This document shows, piece after piece, positions 8,150 through 37,532 of a stretch of DNA of 43,382 bases; the first letter of the stretch is position 1; every line of letters begins with the position of its first letter. Origin of the DNA: a bacterium (GTDB lineage: Bacteria; UBP6; UBA1177). The notes beneath the pieces are model-generated. The model made no database searches, was not told where the DNA came from, and saw only the letters and a list, made by a program, of their open reading frames with translations. Where the stretch lies: positions 71,301 to 114,682 of the forward strand of contig JAGCNV010000106.1 in NCBI GenBank assembly GCA_017645765.1, in the 5' to 3' direction. The position numbers and the translations under genes are program-made.

Positions 8150-8166
8150 AAATATTGGAGAATATG

Positions 8167-9738
8167 ATGAAATTAAAATTTTTGATTCCTGTTTTTGCAC
8201 TTCTTTTCATTTTAAGTTGCGGTGACGACCCCATTTTACCGGAAACAGACTTAGACAATGAAGCATCCGACAACAGTGAAAATATCGTTCCAGACGACGG
8301 AAATTCCGAAAACGGAAACGATTCCGACAGCGACACCTCAACCGATGGCGACAAAAACGATGATAATGCCGATTCGACCTATGATTCAGGTGATTCTCAA
8401 CCAGACAAAGATACAGACAACGCAGATTCAGAAGATGATTCAGAAAACAATGTTACCGATGACAACGACACGGCGGCGGATAACGACAACGATCCGAATG
8501 ACACTGATTCAACCGATGATTCCGGCGATTCGCAAACTGACGATGACGCCGACAGCGATACCGGAGACAATGACGCAGACACCGCATCAGGCGATGACGA
8601 CGCAGATTCCGGCAGCAATACCGGCGAAGAAGACGAACTGGAAGTCGTTCTTCCTTACAACGAAGGAAAGGTTAAAAAAACAATAAATTTTGACACGGAA
8701 ATCAAAAAAATCGATGTTCTGCTTATGGTTGACCTTTCAGTCATCTCTGCCGCTCACGACAACCTGAAAGACAATGTTAAAACTGCAATTATTGACAGAA
8801 TCCTCGCAGAAATTCCAGATTCGGCGTTCGGACTCGTTACATTCGGGACAATCGAACAGAAAAATCCATATACTCTGGTGCAGCCGATTACGACAGACGA
8901 GAACGACATCGGAAACGCGGTTAAAGGAATCGCAAAAGTGACATCAGGTTCTACCACATACCATAATCTCGCTCTTTGGGAAGCTGCAACAGGCGAGTAC
9001 AACTACGAACAAATCGCATATCCAAACAGCATCGGAAATACGGCCTATGACAGGTCAATAACCATTCCGGCTGTTGACTGCAGCGGAGAGGAAGGAAACA
9101 TCGGCGGAGCATGTTTCAGAGAGAACGCAATGCCAATATTCGTTATGGCAAGTGCAAAAGCGTTTACTGATTTTTCCAAGACGGATTACAGCTGGACAAA
9201 CGGCGGAAGTAAAATGAAAACCAAAGCAAAAGCCCTTGAAGAGATGAACAACATACATGCGAAATTCATCGGTTTTTCTTTGGACGGGACATCATCTTCG
9301 ACCAAACCGACCAATGATTTCAAATATTTCTCTGACGGAACAGAAACCACTTATCTCTCAGGAGACAATTTCAATGTCATCATAAATGCCGACGACAGCG
9401 CTTTATCTTATCAGATCGCGGAAGCCGTCAAAAATCTGACCGCAAACATCAAACTCGACGTTAAAGCAGAGTTCAAACATGTCGAAAACGATTATGGTGT
9501 GGAAAACACTGTTCAATTCAAAAAATCGTTCTATCCTGAAGACGGAGACACGGTAAAAGCAGGAGACACCGTATCTTTCGACGTAACTTTCGAGAACAAA
9601 ATCTACGAAAACACAACTTGCGACCCGCACATTTTCTACATAACGGTTGAAGCAGTAGGTGAAGGACTCGTTCTCGACAGCCGAAAAATCAAGGTCGTCG
9701 TTCCGGGCAAAGAAGAAGGCTGCGGATCAGCTCAGTAA
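8167..9738 (+). CDS. Lipoprotein with acidic tether and degenerate von Willebrand A-like domain
   Basis: Among nearby starts (TTG 8155, ATG 8164, ATG 8167) I choose 8167 for its spacing to GGAG. The product is 523 residues: signal peptide with lipobox ILSC, then an Asp/Ser/Asn/Thr-rich tether to about residue 160 made of loosely repeated DSTDDSGDSQ units. Next comes a domain starting with IDVLLMVDLSVIS that resembles the first strand and MIDAS loop of a VWA domain. It continues with FGLVTFGT, a GSTTYHNLALWEA segment and PIFVMASAKAF. The metal motif is DxSxxS rather than DxSxS, so metal binding may be altered. The C-terminal ~120 residues form a separate beta-rich region with two cysteines. 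The likely place is outside or on the outer membrane; the ligand is unknown. Confidence 0.75.
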   Translation: MKLKFLIPVFALLFILSCGDDPILPETDLDNEASDNSENIVPDDGNSENGNDSDSDTSTDGDKNDDNADSTYDSGDSQPDKDTDNADSEDDSENNVTDDNDTAADNDNDPNDTDSTDDSGDSQTDDDADSDTGDNDADTASGDDDADSGSNTGEEDELEVVLPYNEGKVKKTINFDTEIKKIDVLLMVDLSVISAAHDNLKDNVKTAIIDRILAEIPDSAFGLVTFGTIEQKNPYTLVQPITTDENDIGNAVKGIAKVTSGSTTYHNLALWEAATGEYNYEQIAYPNSIGNTAYDRSITIPAVDCSGEEGNIGGACFRENAMPIFVMASAKAFTDFSKTDYSWTNGGSKMKTKAKALEEMNNIHAKFIGFSLDGTSSSTKPTNDFKYFSDGTETTYLSGDNFNVIINADDSALSYQIAEAVKNLTANIKLDVKAEFKHVENDYGVENTVQFKKSFYPEDGDTVKAGDTVSFDVTFENKIYENTTCDPHIFYITVEAVGEGLVLDSRKIKVVVPGKEEGCGSAQ

Positions 9739-10892: not shown

Positions 10893-12803
10893 ATGAAAAG
10901 ATTTTTTGTTTTAACGGTAATTTTGGTTGTTTTTTCAATGCTGGTTTCATGCGGCGGAAGCGGCAAATCCGAACATGTGACTGACGGTGACAGTGAAACT
11001 CCGGATGAAGATGCAGATGCAGGTTCAGACGAAGAACCTTATACCGATGAAGAAGGGGTAACGGATACAGATCTTACAGGCTCGGTTTTCTCCATGCCGA
11101 AGATAAATCCTTCGGGAAATATTCCCCTCAGTGCGGCTGTTCCGATGAAATCGGCGGGAATCGCGAAAGTTACGGTGGAAGTTGCCGACATCGATGGAAA
11201 ATCGGCTCCTTTCAAACGTGAATACACTGTTGCGGAAGATGCTTCCGAAAACGTGGAAATTCCAGTTTTAGGTCTTTTCCCGGCTCACAAAAACAAAGTC
11301 ACGGTCGCGGCTCTGGACGCATCTGGCAAGGCGATTGACGGAAAAACTTTCGAGATAACGACAAAATCTCTGCCAAAAGATTTTCCGGCAATCAAAATGT
11401 CAGGAACAATAGATTCGGGCTGGACGATGGTCAACTGGCTCAGGACTCCCCGTTCGAGAACCGAAATGAACGGTATCGCGCTTGATGAACTCGGGCGTGT
11501 CCGCTGGTACACGGATCTGGCGTTTCCTGTATGTTTCCCGATAGTCATAAAAGAGGACACTTTCTACTGCGGCGGCGGCGAAGCTGAAACCCACGTTACC
11601 AAATATGATTTCATGGGTTACGTCCTTGAAGATATCGATGTTGCTCCTCTCGGCTACAAAAACGTTCATCACGAAGTTTTCATCAAGCCTGACGGCAACT
11701 ATCTTCTTGGTGTAGACAAGAAAGACAGCGGATACATCGAAGACAGAGTCATCGAAATCAACCCCGCCGATCCTGCAAATCCGCAGCTTCGCGGTGCGTG
11801 GAACCTCAACGACACCTTCCCCGATGTTGCAGACCTCTTCATTGATATGCAGCCGACAAGTACCGAAATTCCGGGACAGACGAACAATCCGATCCACCAC
11901 AACGCCGTTTTCTACGATGAATCCGACGATTCGATAATAGTCGGCTCTCAGACTGCCGGAATCGTAAAACTTACCCATTCCGGGTATGTAATATGGTATC
12001 TTGCACCGCATCTGTTCGGTCTTATCGACGATGAGGACAAAGACGGAAAAAGCGATTCATTCATGGCGAAATATGATCCGGCAAACCAGATGACATGGAT
12101 CGGCGACTACTCGCAGGAAAAAGACGGCAAAACCGTTGCCGGCGAAAAATACGTCAACGAAAGAGCTCCGATAAACGGGATTCCTTACAAAGTTTACTCC
12201 GATTTTGAGTTCTCCTACCCCGAATTTTTCCTCACTCCTCTTGACAAAAACGGCAAAGAAATCGAAGATTTGTCCGTCAAACAGGGTTTTGCCTCCCACG
12301 AAGACTTTTCGTGGCCTTTCCGAGCACACAACCCGACGATCCTCAAAAACGGAAACCTGATGCTTTTTGACAACGGTCTGGCGAGAAATTTCGGACTTAT
12401 TCCGATTTCGCAAAACCATTTCAGCCGCGTCGTAGAATACAAAATCACACCTGACAAGGACGGCTACGGCGGAACTATCCAGCAGATATGGGAATATGTT
12501 CTCAAAGACGACCCGATGTGGTATTCGATGAGTATTATCGTAAGCGGCGCGAACGAGCTTGAAAACGGCAACCGCCTCATAACTTCGGGCTCTCTCGGTT
12601 CTTCGTTTATCCCGGAAATGTTCAGAAAAGCCTACGGCGACGGTCCGGTCGGAGCATTTATTATCGAAGTCGATCCTACGGACAATTCAGAGAAAAACAG
12701 AATAACATTAGACAGATACATCGATGACGACTATCCGGTAAACGAATTTTCGGCGTTCCGCGCTTACCGTTTTGAAATTTCGGCATCACTGAGACAGAGA
12801 TGA
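10893..12803 (+). CDS. Arylsulfotransferase (ASST)-family lipoprotein
   Basis: ATG 10893 begins a clear signal peptide with lipobox LVSC (636 residues). After a short acidic tether (to about residue 55) there is a beta-sandwich-like N-domain, then a beta-propeller-like region. Segments typical of bacterial aryl-sulfate sulfotransferases are seen: NGIALDELGRVRWY, HHEVFIKPDGNYLLGV, NPIHHNAVFYDE...DSIIVGSQT, and FRAHNPTILKNGNLMLFDNG. The His in RAHNP aligns in context with the catalytic histidine region of ASST. The known family moves sulfate from one phenolic compound to another without PAPS. Whether this member is active is not certain. Its stop codon overlaps the next start (ATGA), so the two genes are translationally coupled. 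Confidence 0.8.
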   Translation: MKRFFVLTVILVVFSMLVSCGGSGKSEHVTDGDSETPDEDADAGSDEEPYTDEEGVTDTDLTGSVFSMPKINPSGNIPLSAAVPMKSAGIAKVTVEVADIDGKSAPFKREYTVAEDASENVEIPVLGLFPAHKNKVTVAALDASGKAIDGKTFEITTKSLPKDFPAIKMSGTIDSGWTMVNWLRTPRSRTEMNGIALDELGRVRWYTDLAFPVCFPIVIKEDTFYCGGGEAETHVTKYDFMGYVLEDIDVAPLGYKNVHHEVFIKPDGNYLLGVDKKDSGYIEDRVIEINPADPANPQLRGAWNLNDTFPDVADLFIDMQPTSTEIPGQTNNPIHHNAVFYDESDDSIIVGSQTAGIVKLTHSGYVIWYLAPHLFGLIDDEDKDGKSDSFMAKYDPANQMTWIGDYSQEKDGKTVAGEKYVNERAPINGIPYKVYSDFEFSYPEFFLTPLDKNGKEIEDLSVKQGFASHEDFSWPFRAHNPTILKNGNLMLFDNGLARNFGLIPISQNHFSRVVEYKITPDKDGYGGTIQQIWEYVLKDDPMWYSMSIIVSGANELENGNRLITSGSLGSSFIPEMFRKAYGDGPVGAFIIEVDPTDNSEKNRITLDRYIDDDYPVNEFSAFRAYRFEISASLRQR

Positions 12804-13405
12804 AAAAAATAGTTTTTCTCCTCACCATTTTACTTTGCGGTTTTTTAAGCGCGCAGCAGGACGAAACGCAGCTTTTTGCCTCCCAGCTTTATAACCAGTC
12901 GGCTATACTTTTGAACAGCGCGAAAAACCAGTGCAAAGAACTTCCCCAGAAAAACAAAGCACTTGCAAACGCCGTTTCGGAGCTTTACAAAAAGGCTCTG
13001 GAACACAAAAACGTGGCTACAAACGTCTTTGCAAATGCCGAATATCTCCTCAATTTCATGCAGGGGAACATCGAAAAAAGCTGCGGACTCGTGAATCTGG
13101 CAAACGATGAATCGATAAAACTCATTATCGCTCAGGAATTCGTGCAGCTTCTCGAAAAAAAGAAGGCTTCAGCTAATTTTGAAGACTTTATCGACAAAAT
13201 CTACGGCACAGAATACGGAAAACTGCTTTATCTCGCGACTTCAGTCTCCACGCTTGAAAAAATGTACACCAAATGGGCGGCAAAAATGATTTCAAACAGA
13301 AACGATATCAAGAAAACCATTTCCAACATCGCCTCAGCCAACACCGAACTGAACAAAGAACTCATTGATTTCAATAAAACTTTCAAACTTTATTACGAAA
13401 AATAG
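12800..13405 (+). CDS. Secreted helical protein of unknown function
   Basis: The 201-residue product starts with MKKIVFLLTILLCGFLSAQQ, a standard signal peptide with a likely cleavage after SAQ. The rest is mostly helical, with Lys/Glu/Ala/Asn-rich stretches, two cysteines (in KNQCKEL and EKSCGL) and no domain I recognise. Its ATG overlaps the stop of the sulfotransferase-like gene by 4 bp, so it may serve that protein, for example as a periplasmic helper. That partnership is an inference from coupling only. Confidence 0.7.
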   Translation: MKKIVFLLTILLCGFLSAQQDETQLFASQLYNQSAILLNSAKNQCKELPQKNKALANAVSELYKKALEHKNVATNVFANAEYLLNFMQGNIEKSCGLVNLANDESIKLIIAQEFVQLLEKKKASANFEDFIDKIYGTEYGKLLYLATSVSTLEKMYTKWAAKMISNRNDIKKTISNIASANTELNKELIDFNKTFKLYYEK

Positions 13406-13415
13406 GAGATTTGTC

Positions 13416-13844
13416 ATGAAAAAATTTTGGGAAGCAATGATTTTTGTTCTCAGCCTGTTCGCGCTTGTTTCGTGCGGCGGCGACGAAGATGTCCAGTGCG
13501 AGGACGTCGGAGAACTGATGTGCCCGGGTTCAGAAGTTACACTCTGTGCGAATGAAAGCAAAGGGACAGGATGGTTCGAGTATGAAGACCAAAAATACAA
13601 ATGCGAAGGCAAAAACGAAAATATTGACTGCGACAAGGCTGTCGAGGAAGTTTACAAAGCCTGCGGCCAGACTAATTGCGAATACGGCACCGGCAGCGCG
13701 TGTGACTACAAAATCTGCGTAGATAAATACGGCAGCAGATGGTATGAATACAACGGTAAAAAATATGAATGCGAAGGTAGCTGGGACTACATCAACTGTG
13801 ACCGGGCAGATGAAGAACTTAACAACGACTGTGAAGGCTACTAA
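13416..13844 (+). CDS. Small Cys-rich lipoprotein with two tandem modules
   Basis: ATG 13416 follows AATAGGAGATTTGTC and starts a signal peptide with lipobox LVSC (142 residues); an earlier in-frame ATG at 13365 lies inside the upstream gene. The mature part is two copies of a ~55-residue module. Each has three cysteines near its start, then a W..YE/FEY segment, KYxCEG, IxCDxAxEE and a final Cys. The spacing is so regular that conserved disulfides are likely. No acidic tether is present. It lies 10 bp after the helical protein and probably closes that operon. Function unknown. Confidence 0.75.
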   Translation: MKKFWEAMIFVLSLFALVSCGGDEDVQCEDVGELMCPGSEVTLCANESKGTGWFEYEDQKYKCEGKNENIDCDKAVEEVYKACGQTNCEYGTGSACDYKICVDKYGSRWYEYNGKKYECEGSWDYINCDRADEELNNDCEGY

Positions 13845-13939: not shown

Positions 13940-13967
13940 TTGACTTTTTGCCGTACTTCCGTATAAT
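13940..13967 (+). promoter_or_regulatory. Strong promoter of rpsO-pnp
   Basis: TTGACT (13940-13945), a 16-bp spacer and TATAAT (13962-13967), with a predicted start near 13974. The short leader ends in TTGGAGG before rpsO. Confidence 0.75.
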
Positions 13968-33887: not shown

Positions 33888-35651
33888 ATGAAAAAATTTT
33901 TATCCGCCGCAATCGTTTTTTTGATGTTTTTTTTCGGTACAGGTTGCGGAAATTCATCGAAAAACGAAGAAAAAACTCCAGACACCGATGAAACAAATGA
34001 CACCGAAAGAGAAGATTCCGAAGAACCCGACGAAGACGAAACCGCTCCGGAACGATCGCCGGAAGATGAGACAAAACTCGAAAGCATCAGAAATCTTGCC
34101 GAAGAGTATGTCAGATTCTCCCACGGAACCGGCGTCGTGATCGGTTACGGCGTCAACGAGCTCACATCAGTCGCTTACGGCGTGCGCCACAGCAAAACTC
34201 AGGAACCGCTTTCGACCGAAGACCTTTTCGACATTGGAAGCATAACGAAAAATTTCACTGCCGTAACACTGCTTCTCTTGCAGGAAGAGGGAAAAATCGA
34301 TCTCGACGAAACGATTGACAAATGGTTTCCCGACTTTGAAAAAGGTGACATAATCACCGTCAGAATGCTCCTTAATCACACCTCTGGTATTCTGGAGTGG
34401 AACGAATTCGATGACCTGGAAGGCACCTTGGACAAAGTCAACGGAAAATTCAATTTCGAGCCCGGAACCGACTGGTCGTACAGCAACACAAACTTCATTA
34501 TTGCCGGACTTATCATAAACAGAATCGAAGGAAAAGATGCGGTTGAAGTTATCCGCGAAAAGATCCTCGATCCGCTTGAAATGAAGCACACTTTCATGAA
34601 AGAGTTCGAAGAATATCCGCTTGAAGAAAAAGCCCACGGACACACATTCGATGAGTATGGAAACATCGTTCCCTACGAACTGAATGAAAGGTTCTGGACT
34701 GCCGGAGGAATCATTTCCAATGTCGGAGATATGTTCAAATACGCTCATGCGCTTTTCAACGGAGAACTTCTTTCAAAAGAGAGCATGGATCAGATGCTTG
34801 ACATGGTCAAAGTCTCGGGAACACCTGTTTACGGGCTCGCTATAATGTACGGCAACGGTTCCCACGGTAAATTCTACTACCACGGCGGAGATGTCATCGT
34901 CACCTCGGCAATGCTTGCCTACTACCCCGAAACCGGCGAAATACACGTTCTGTTCAACAACGGCGGAAGCAGTTCCAGCACGCTCTTCCTCCTCAACGAG
35001 GAGATCGAATTCGTTCTCATGGACGGTGAAACTGCTGCAAAAGGAAGCATTTTTCCTGATTGGGAAGAACTTATAAGCCATGATGACGACACGCAGATAT
35101 TCGCTCTTTATGCGCCTATGCCGGACTATCCGAAGGAAGAACTGAACGGATCTATAGGATATTTCGTCTATCCGGAAGACTACTATCCGGACTTTTACTG
35201 CGAGCATTATATGTTTAAATCCCAAGGCTATGTAAAAATCATACAGCAGTGCATGGAACCTTTGAGATACTACACTGATGATCTGAAAGTCAGAAGGACC
35301 GATATCGATATGTATCTAAGCGAATTTGAAGCAGCAGCTGAATCTGGTGAAGCAACACAGGATTTCTACGTCACGAAATACGATTATTACTACGATATAG
35401 AGGGCGATTTTGTCACTAAAATATGCTATGACCTTGAAGAGAGCGATCCTGACAAATATATGATGATTTCAAAAGAGAAGCATCCGTCGAATCCTGAATT
35501 TTATCAGCTTTGGGGCAAATCGAAATTGGCCAAAAGTTCAAGAGCGACAGGCTGCATCTGCATGGATGAAAACGAAAAAGAACGCGAATGCACTGAAGAT
35601 GAAACCACGGAAAATAAAAGCATACTTCCGAATTTACCAACCCTGTTATAA
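33888..35651 (+). CDS. Beta-lactamase-fold serine hydrolase lipoprotein, twin A
   Basis: The 587-residue product has lipobox GTGC (Cys20), a short acidic tether (to about 60), and a class C beta-lactamase/esterase-type domain (Pfam Beta-lactamase family). All three catalytic motifs are present: S118-I-T-K121 with the nucleophile, Y198-S-N200, and H332-G-G334 in place of KTG. The segment VRMLLNHTSGI is family-typical. Members hydrolyse D-amino-acid peptides, esters or beta-lactams; the substrate here is unknown. The C-terminal ~200 residues form an extra domain (FPDWEELI ... YFVYPEDYYPDFYCEHYMF ... CICMDENEKERECTED) with several cysteines. The ribosome-binding site is weak. Confidence 0.87.
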   Translation: MKKFLSAAIVFLMFFFGTGCGNSSKNEEKTPDTDETNDTEREDSEEPDEDETAPERSPEDETKLESIRNLAEEYVRFSHGTGVVIGYGVNELTSVAYGVRHSKTQEPLSTEDLFDIGSITKNFTAVTLLLLQEEGKIDLDETIDKWFPDFEKGDIITVRMLLNHTSGILEWNEFDDLEGTLDKVNGKFNFEPGTDWSYSNTNFIIAGLIINRIEGKDAVEVIREKILDPLEMKHTFMKEFEEYPLEEKAHGHTFDEYGNIVPYELNERFWTAGGIISNVGDMFKYAHALFNGELLSKESMDQMLDMVKVSGTPVYGLAIMYGNGSHGKFYYHGGDVIVTSAMLAYYPETGEIHVLFNNGGSSSSTLFLLNEEIEFVLMDGETAAKGSIFPDWEELISHDDDTQIFALYAPMPDYPKEELNGSIGYFVYPEDYYPDFYCEHYMFKSQGYVKIIQQCMEPLRYYTDDLKVRRTDIDMYLSEFEAAAESGEATQDFYVTKYDYYYDIEGDFVTKICYDLEESDPDKYMMISKEKHPSNPEFYQLWGKSKLAKSSRATGCICMDENEKERECTEDETTENKSILPNLPTLL

Positions 35652-35672
35652 AATAATTTAAAGGAGAGTAAC

Positions 35673-37532
35673 ATGAAAAAAATTCTCATTGCAATGATTC
35701 TTCTTTCAATACTCTTTTTCGGAGCGGCCTGCGGAAGTTCTTCAAAAAGCAAAGAAGAAACTCCGGATACCGACAGTTCGGGACCGGATGCCGATACCGA
35801 AGAGGAAGACACTGAGGAAGACAACGACGTAAACAACGAAGAACCTGACGAAGACGAACCGGAGAAACAGGAACTAACCGAAGAAGAAATACTCGAAAGC
35901 ATCAAAAATCTTGCTGAAGAATATGTAAATTTCGCCCACGGAACAGGCGTTGTTGTCGGATACGGCTATGACAAACTTACATCTTTCGCTTTAGGCGTCC
36001 GCAACAGCGAAACGCAAGAAAAACTTCAGCCGGACGACCTTTTTGCTGTCGGCAGCATAACAAAAAATTTCACGGCAGTAACAATGCTTCTCTTGCAGGA
36101 AGAGGGAAAAATCGACCTTGACTGGACTATCAACAAATGGTTCCCTGACTTTGAAAAAGGCAACGAAATCACCGTCAGAATGCTCCTCAACCATACTTCC
36201 GGCATTCAGGAAATGACAGAGATCCTCGATCCGGAAGAAATCGTCGAAAACGTCAACGGCCGCTTCAACTTCGAACCCGGAACTTCATGGGCTTATATCA
36301 ACGCGAACTTTGTTCTTGCAGGTCTCATTATGAGCGAAGTTGCAGGAAAACCGGCACATGAAGTTATCCGCGAGAAAATCATCGAACCGCTCGGACTGAC
36401 GCATACTTTTATGAGAGGTTTTGAAGAACATTCCGAAAAAAACAAGGCACACGGACACGCTTATGACACTCACGGAAATATCGTTCCTTATGAATATGAG
36501 CATAAGGCATGGACTGCGGGATCTCTTGTTTCAAATGTTGAAGACCTTTTCAAATACGGTTACGCTCTTTTCCACGGAGAAATCCTTTCGAAAGAAAGCA
36601 TGGATCAGATGCTTGACATAGTTTATCTTCTGGGAAAGCCGATGTACGGCCTCGGAACTCAGTACGGCGAAGGATCTCACAGCAAATTCTACGGTCACGG
36701 CGGTGATGTTTTCGATTCACATTCAATGCTTTACTATTACCCGGAAACCGGAGAAATACATATAATCCTCAACAATTTCAATGAAAGCAAGGATATGTAT
36801 GTCCTTAACGACGAGATAGAATATGTTCTTATGAACAACAGACCCGCGAAAAAGAAGACCTCTTTCCCTGATTGGAACGAAATTATCGACAACGGCTACA
36901 AAACTCAGATTTTCTCTCTTTATTCGATCATGGAAGACTATCCGGTATATAATCTCGACTACGGTATCGGCTACTTTGCATATCCGGAAGATACTTACAC
37001 CAACTACTACTGCCAGCAGTACATGTTCAGATATCCTGACGGCAAAGGCAACTCGATCGTAAAAATCGCTTCTGAGTGCATCGAACCTAAAGAATATTAC
37101 GTCGGTCCTTTCAAAGTTCAGCGCACCGACATCGATATGTATCTTGACGATTTCAATGCAGCAGTTGATTCAGACAAACCTACGCAGGACTTTTATGTCA
37201 CGAAATACGATTATTTCTACGATCTTGAAAAAGAATATGTCTACAAATACTGCTATTACCTCGAAGACAAGGATTCTGAGAAATACATGATTATTTCAAG
37301 AGATACCAATCCGTCAAAAACCGAATTTTATCATCTTTGGGGCAAGGCAAAAATGGCTGCAAGCGTCAAATTGACAGGCTGCCATTGCTACAACAAAGCC
37401 GGCAAAGAACGCAACTGCACCGAGAATGACGAATATCCGCCGAAAGAAGAAACCGAAGAACCTGAAGAACCCGGCGACGATGATGAAATCACGGACAACG
37501 AAACTCCGGATGAAGAAACACCTGATGAATAG
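35673..37532 (+). CDS. Beta-lactamase-fold serine hydrolase lipoprotein, twin B
   Basis: The 619-residue close paralogue of the preceding gene starts 21 bp after it behind AAAGGAGAG. The catalytic triad motifs are S128-I-T-K131, Y208-I-N210 and H342-G-G344, so both copies look competent. The tether is longer and more acidic, and the protein ends in a second acidic tail (EEPEEPGDDDEITDNETPDE), a possible surface-exposed extension. The lipobox is GAAC. The C-terminal cysteine-containing domain (YYCQQYMF, CHCYNKAGKERNC) is shared with twin A. Strong similarity at the DNA level in the catalytic domain points to a tandem duplication. Likely site: outer membrane or periplasm. Confidence 0.87.
   Translation: MKKILIAMILLSILFFGAACGSSSKSKEETPDTDSSGPDADTEEEDTEEDNDVNNEEPDEDEPEKQELTEEEILESIKNLAEEYVNFAHGTGVVVGYGYDKLTSFALGVRNSETQEKLQPDDLFAVGSITKNFTAVTMLLLQEEGKIDLDWTINKWFPDFEKGNEITVRMLLNHTSGIQEMTEILDPEEIVENVNGRFNFEPGTSWAYINANFVLAGLIMSEVAGKPAHEVIREKIIEPLGLTHTFMRGFEEHSEKNKAHGHAYDTHGNIVPYEYEHKAWTAGSLVSNVEDLFKYGYALFHGEILSKESMDQMLDIVYLLGKPMYGLGTQYGEGSHSKFYGHGGDVFDSHSMLYYYPETGEIHIILNNFNESKDMYVLNDEIEYVLMNNRPAKKKTSFPDWNEIIDNGYKTQIFSLYSIMEDYPVYNLDYGIGYFAYPEDTYTNYYCQQYMFRYPDGKGNSIVKIASECIEPKEYYVGPFKVQRTDIDMYLDDFNAAVDSDKPTQDFYVTKYDYFYDLEKEYVYKYCYYLEDKDSEKYMIISRDTNPSKTEFYHLWGKAKMAASVKLTGCHCYNKAGKERNCTENDEYPPKEETEEPEEPGDDDEITDNETPDEETPDE

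Follow-up and report, generated by a model that had tools for sequence, protein, structure and literature searches.

An arylsulfotransferase-family lipoprotein with an altered active site in the bacterial phylum UBP6

The window, that is the whole stretch of 43,382 nucleotides analysed here, is part of a 2.6-Mb draft genome and encodes a lipoprotein of the arylsulfotransferase (ASST) family: a known kind of enzyme with an altered active site, and not a new system. A glutamine stands at the place of Arg374 of Escherichia coli AssT in 28/28 UBP6 proteins of what we call the Q-type, to which the window ASST belongs, against 0/65 distinct ASST-family proteins outside UBP6. This clade-wide change is surprising, as the legend of Figure 5 in PMC13426309 gives the AssT active-site residues, Arg374 included, as conserved in all published ASTs; for this reason the glutamine could stand for a lost or a different chemistry. 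A clade that breaks the rule so regularly, and that carries a second basic residue near the catalytic histidine, is a natural test of the role of Arg374 in the chemistry of the sulfurylated histidine, and might also supply new sulfation catalysts independent of the AssT disulfide.

The same ASST protein is found at 80-94% identity in the nearest named relatives, which are rumen or gut metagenome genomes, some of them labelled UBP6 (UBA1177, UBA1196); the rumen lineage itself already appears in PMC7820578 as UBP6 genus UBA1177. ASST-family proteins occur in 24 of 28 UBP6 genomes, and are thus carried by the majority of genomes in this little-studied rumen phylum. A limited literature search found no paper on the Q-type clade. 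The features discussed below, with positions counted along the window, are the following.

10893..12803, +, ASST-family lipoprotein, 636 aa (PF05935, PF17425; AssT 3elq best by sequence, AssT by model)
10893..10952, +, signal peptide of a lipoprotein, with lipobox LVSC (Cys20), read from the translation
10953..11072, +, acidic linker, Asp or Glu at 16 of 40 residues (sequence composition)
11100..11363, +, ASST N-terminal Ig-like domain, residues 70-157 (PF17425, Pfam)
11670..11672, +, His260, aligned with AssT His252
11895..11903, +, His335 and Asn337, aligned with AssT His356 and Asn358
11949..11951, +, Gln353, aligned with AssT Arg374
12012..12227, +, clade-specific insert, residues 374-445 (alignment)
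12024..12062, +, calcium-loop-like motif IDDEDKDGKSDSF inside the insert (strict pattern)
12321..12323, +, Arg477, aligned with AssT Thr434, two positions ahead of the catalytic His
12327..12329, +, His479, aligned with His436, on which AssT is sulfurylated (PMC13426309)
12800..13405, +, secreted six-helix protein, 201 aa, ATGA-coupled to the ASST (ORF overlap, model)
13416..13844, +, Cys-rich lipoprotein, 142 aa, lipobox Cys20 and 12 further Cys, 10 bases downstream of the helical ORF

Family, fold and lipid anchor

Membership of the ASST family, proposed in an earlier note on this DNA, is confirmed by scores of 153 bits against PF05935 and 46.5 bits against PF17425 (cut-off 24.2 in both cases), and AssT (PDB 3elq) is the top match by sequence. 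AssT of uropathogenic E. coli (PDB 3elq, 3ets, 4p05), which comes with DsbL and DsbI, shares the Ig-like and propeller fold: a six-bladed propeller with an N-terminal β-sandwich is seen in the PF17425 match and in the predicted structure, a model of moderate confidence (mean pLDDT 67.1, pTM 0.71, the insert mostly below 50). This moderate-confidence model superimposes on AssT 4p05_A with a Z of 32.5 and an rmsd of 3.7 over 458 aligned residues. The second-best fold match is Cpz4, the caprazamycin sulfotransferase (PDB 9kf4, 9kf6; Z 28.9, rmsd 3.3, 330 aligned), which is 17% identical to the window ASST, keeps an arginine at the matching place and lacks an Ig-like domain in the part that aligns.

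The enzyme had also been described as a lipoprotein, and the prediction from sequence agrees, with a hydrophobic signal followed by LVSC; Cys20 is invariant in 28/28 rows of the UBP6 ASST alignment, A1. AssT, in contrast to this predicted lipid anchor, has a cleaved signal peptide and is reported as periplasmic (PMC13426309). The earlier note went further and presented the anchor as what sets this enzyme apart, a view that does not stand: a lipobox is usual in UBP6 ASSTs, and outside the phylum a crude pattern picks one up in about 8 of 40 ASST-family proteins, with two of the eight doubtful. The anchor is therefore ruled out as the novelty, and the real difference of the window ASST is its active site together with the clade-specific insert. 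An acidic N-terminus like that of the ASST is common to many lipoproteins of the genus.

Active-site residues and the Q-type clade

The Q-type set comprises 28 distinct full-length UBP6 proteins, of which 15 come from the genus of the window, 7 from other genera of its family and 6 from family f3. UBP6 proteins shorter than 440 residues (partial), the duplicate fragments L092_2495 and L093_2550 and the duplicate outside row L195 were left out of the counts, as were rows with identical C-terminal 150-200 residues. The last step took out the copy of genome G001, which is apparently broken near the N-terminus, a break that may be an assembly fault. Outside UBP6, 40 proteins were drawn from 34 of the 39 genomes with a match, the five weak ones being omitted (G110, G144, G161, G270, G303); an added outside set came from two further searches, with matches in 17/392 and 18/396 genomes, and one locus was read per place at 24 places.

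In AssT of E. coli, His436 is the sulfurylated residue and the site also holds His252, His356, Asn358, Arg374 and Thr501 (PMC13426309). In an alignment with an E. coli AssT among its rows, these residues, taken in that order, correspond to His479, His260, His335, Asn337, Gln353 and Val550 of the window ASST. The question raised earlier, whether the catalytic histidines and arginine are kept, thus receives a divided answer. His260, His335, Asn337 and His479, the counterparts of AssT His252, His356, Asn358 and His436, are present in 28/28 clade members, as in AssT-type enzymes, while Arg374 is replaced by glutamine. The spacing between the His356 and Arg374 places is 18 residues in both the window ASST and AssT, so the glutamine is not an alignment artefact. 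Valine at the Thr501 place is likewise found in 28/28.

A second basic change accompanies the first. Arginine stands two residues before the catalytic histidine in 28/28 Q-type proteins, where AssT has Thr434, and Arg or Lys is found there in 5 of the 65 proteins outside UBP6. At the Arg374 place these 65 carry Arg in 57 cases and Lys in one. A basic residue at the 477 place occurs in 2 of the 7 outside proteins without Arg or Lys at the Arg374 place against 3 of the 58 that keep one; such a trade between the two places is suggestive only, and not significant (Fisher p 0.086). The two proteins with the swap-like pattern, no Arg at the first place and Arg or Lys at the second, are L168 and L200. 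Within the clade, the residue beside the glutamine is an arginine in 12/28 members, none of them in the genus of the window; this arginine could do the job of Arg374 in those 12, but not in the genus of the window.

The insert lies between the Gln and Arg477 places and measures 61-73 residues in 28/28 Q-type proteins. The matching stretch of the alignment holds 10 residues in AssT, 0-10 in 64 other rows and no more than 18 in the added outside set. The strict calcium-loop-like pattern is present within the insert in 25/28, against 0/64 others. A maximum likelihood tree, made by a quick method with a midpoint root, several long outside rows and two further partial rows removed, separates the 28 Q-type proteins from all others by a branch with an SH-aLRT of 100. 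Moreover, the Q-type ASST is under purifying selection: the 78 pairs among 13 genus copies give pN/pS values of 0.07-0.27, with a median of 0.18, and the active site thus appears rewired rather than dead.

Other ASSTs of the phylum differ from this pattern. The R-type ASST lipoproteins of UBP6 family f3 (L081-L085, L104-L106) share the lipobox and the ASST fold, and carry Arg at the Arg374 place in 8/8, Tyr at the 477 place in 8/8 and no long insert. Of 14 distinct tandem-type ASSTs of the window's family, 9 have Arg at the Arg374 place and 5 have Leu. One tandem pair, of ASST lipoproteins of about 505 aa, lies in the window's own genome on another contig (L110:6874-9919), its first copy having Leu at that place. 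The nearest outside matches found to the Q-type profile are L205 and L206 (179 and 166 bits); L205 keeps Arg at the Arg374 place; in L206 this residue is Lys, and Ser replaces the catalytic His.

Proposed mechanism and alternative explanations

We lean towards reading the Q-type ASST as a lipid-anchored, PAPS-independent sulfuryltransferase of the AssT kind, facing the periplasm or the surface, that does without the AssT disulfide and differs from AssT in the donor or acceptor it prefers. The protein would be an active enzyme. His479 would accept a sulfuryl group from an organic sulfate donor and hand it on to an acceptor, in a ping-pong manner, while Arg477 would help to hold this group, supplying the anion contact that went with Arg374. 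It is plausible that residue 477 points into the site of His479, by analogy with AssT His356 and Asn358, which are two residues apart and both in the site, since 477 stands two before His479. The arginine change may alter the choice of donor or acceptor, and the insert may bind calcium beside the active site. A bolder version, which we put forward as tentative and rather doubtful, is that of a UBP6-specific ASST branch in which the active-site arginine has moved from the Arg374 place to two residues before the sulfurylated histidine and which, with a calcium-gated insert, would act on a donor or group outside the range of AssT, such as a sulfated polymer or another oxyanion.

The protein might instead have lost sulfuryl transfer and be kept as a structural lipoprotein, its β-propeller serving for binding or as a scaffold. 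Propellers often serve as binding modules, and such a loss would fit the absence of Arg374 throughout the clade, the leucine in 5 of 14 tandem-type copies of the same phylum and the serine of L206. We nevertheless judge it unlikely: the four other active-site residues, an FDNG stretch and Ser511-Arg512 are all invariant in 28/28, against a mean column identity of 39% over the 28 rows of A1, and an inactive enzyme should have lost its catalytic histidine in some lineage over an order-wide history. At the other extreme, the fold and the histidines, being as in AssT, would suit an ordinary ASST that performs the usual phenol-to-phenol transfer and in which the glutamine is neutral for donor and acceptor choice; the fixation of this glutamine in the clade, together with the second basic change and the insert, makes such neutrality improbable.

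Quite unlikely as well is a true three-gene sulfation operon, with the helical and Cys-rich proteins as dedicated partners of the ASST. It would account for the adjacency of the ASST and helical genes in 15/15 genus genomes searched (16 loci, G007 having two), with a gap of -4 to +3 bases in the 14 loci measured, but the arrangement does not hold beyond the genus. The two genes lie on different contigs in 4/4 other genomes of the family, and in the family members G017 and G018 the ASST lies beside members of the tandem ASST type instead. Furthermore, the helical protein is present in G019 (94% complete), where no ASST was found, and was not found in 5/5 of the f3 genomes with ASSTs (G020-G024). 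Being unlinked, present without an ASST and absent from ASST-bearing f3 genomes, the helical gene need not serve the ASST; matches to its profile come from 20 of 386 genomes, all 20 of them UBP6. The Cys-rich gene or a shorter relative adjoins in 11/15 genus genomes and was found in 0/46 genomes outside the genus. Thus, of the three-gene conservation that the earlier note wished to see checked, the pair is constant and the trio frequent within the genus, and neither extends to the rest of the family. The "new operon" in which that note saw a distinguishing feature is mostly local, and the helical and Cys-rich proteins would be accessories at most to the sulfuryltransferase that we favour.

Neighbouring genes and Dsb context

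The local gene order had been read correctly: the stop of the ASST gene overlaps the start of the helical-protein gene by 4 bases (ATGA), and the Cys-rich lipoprotein gene follows. The helical protein has a signal-peptide-like N-terminus, judged by eye, and is predicted to be all-helical (mean pLDDT 92.3). No known fold could be assigned to it, with 0 Foldseek matches at E <=0.001 and a best VIA-align Z of 9.5, which is under the tool's meaningful level for helical bundles; a weak NCBIfam match to MakA (E 0.0074) is far below cut-off. The Cys-rich lipoprotein has no Pfam or NCBIfam match and consists, by eye, of two similar halves (W-F/Y-E-Y...KY-x-CEG), one of which is matched by its short relatives. 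Among the genus genomes G006, G011 and G012, the helical protein of G006 and G011 is much closer to the window copy than the adjoining ASST is (dN 0.025-0.028 against 0.080-0.088), a contrast that hints at recombination.

The usual assT-dsbL-dsbI order, as at the Salmonella Senftenberg locus, is not that of the window. Among the ASST neighbours no Dsb match was found by Pfam, and DsbB (PF02600) had no match in the window's genome, in a search whose control matched in 6/14 genomes. The AssT disulfide cysteines (445 and 451 of the precursor) have a Cys counterpart in 0/28 Q-type proteins. DsbA-family domains were found in one protein only, a 648-aa lipoprotein with two CPFC motifs on another contig (L192:2679-4625), which agrees with the earlier observation that no Dsb gene accompanies this ASST. 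Cys214 and Cys226, both present in 16/28 Q-type proteins, might pair with each other. A sulfatase partner was also sought: the genome holds two PF00884 proteins (651 and 677 residues between stops), neither with the C/S-x-P/A-x-R motif, so that this search yielded no classical sulfatase.

Upstream of the ASST lies a divergent gene for a MoxR-type ATPase, and downstream of the Cys-rich gene are rpsO and pnp, identified by reading their translations. A promoter-like site precedes rpsO at 13940-13967, in a scan that gave results near chance (7 found against 4.0 expected). Next to the MoxR-type ATPase, positions 8155-9738 encode a lipoprotein with a long linker rich in Asp, Asn, Ser and Thr and a weak VWA match. 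Further along the window, 33888-37532 encodes two neighbouring proteins of about 600 residues each with beta-lactamase-type domains (PF00144).
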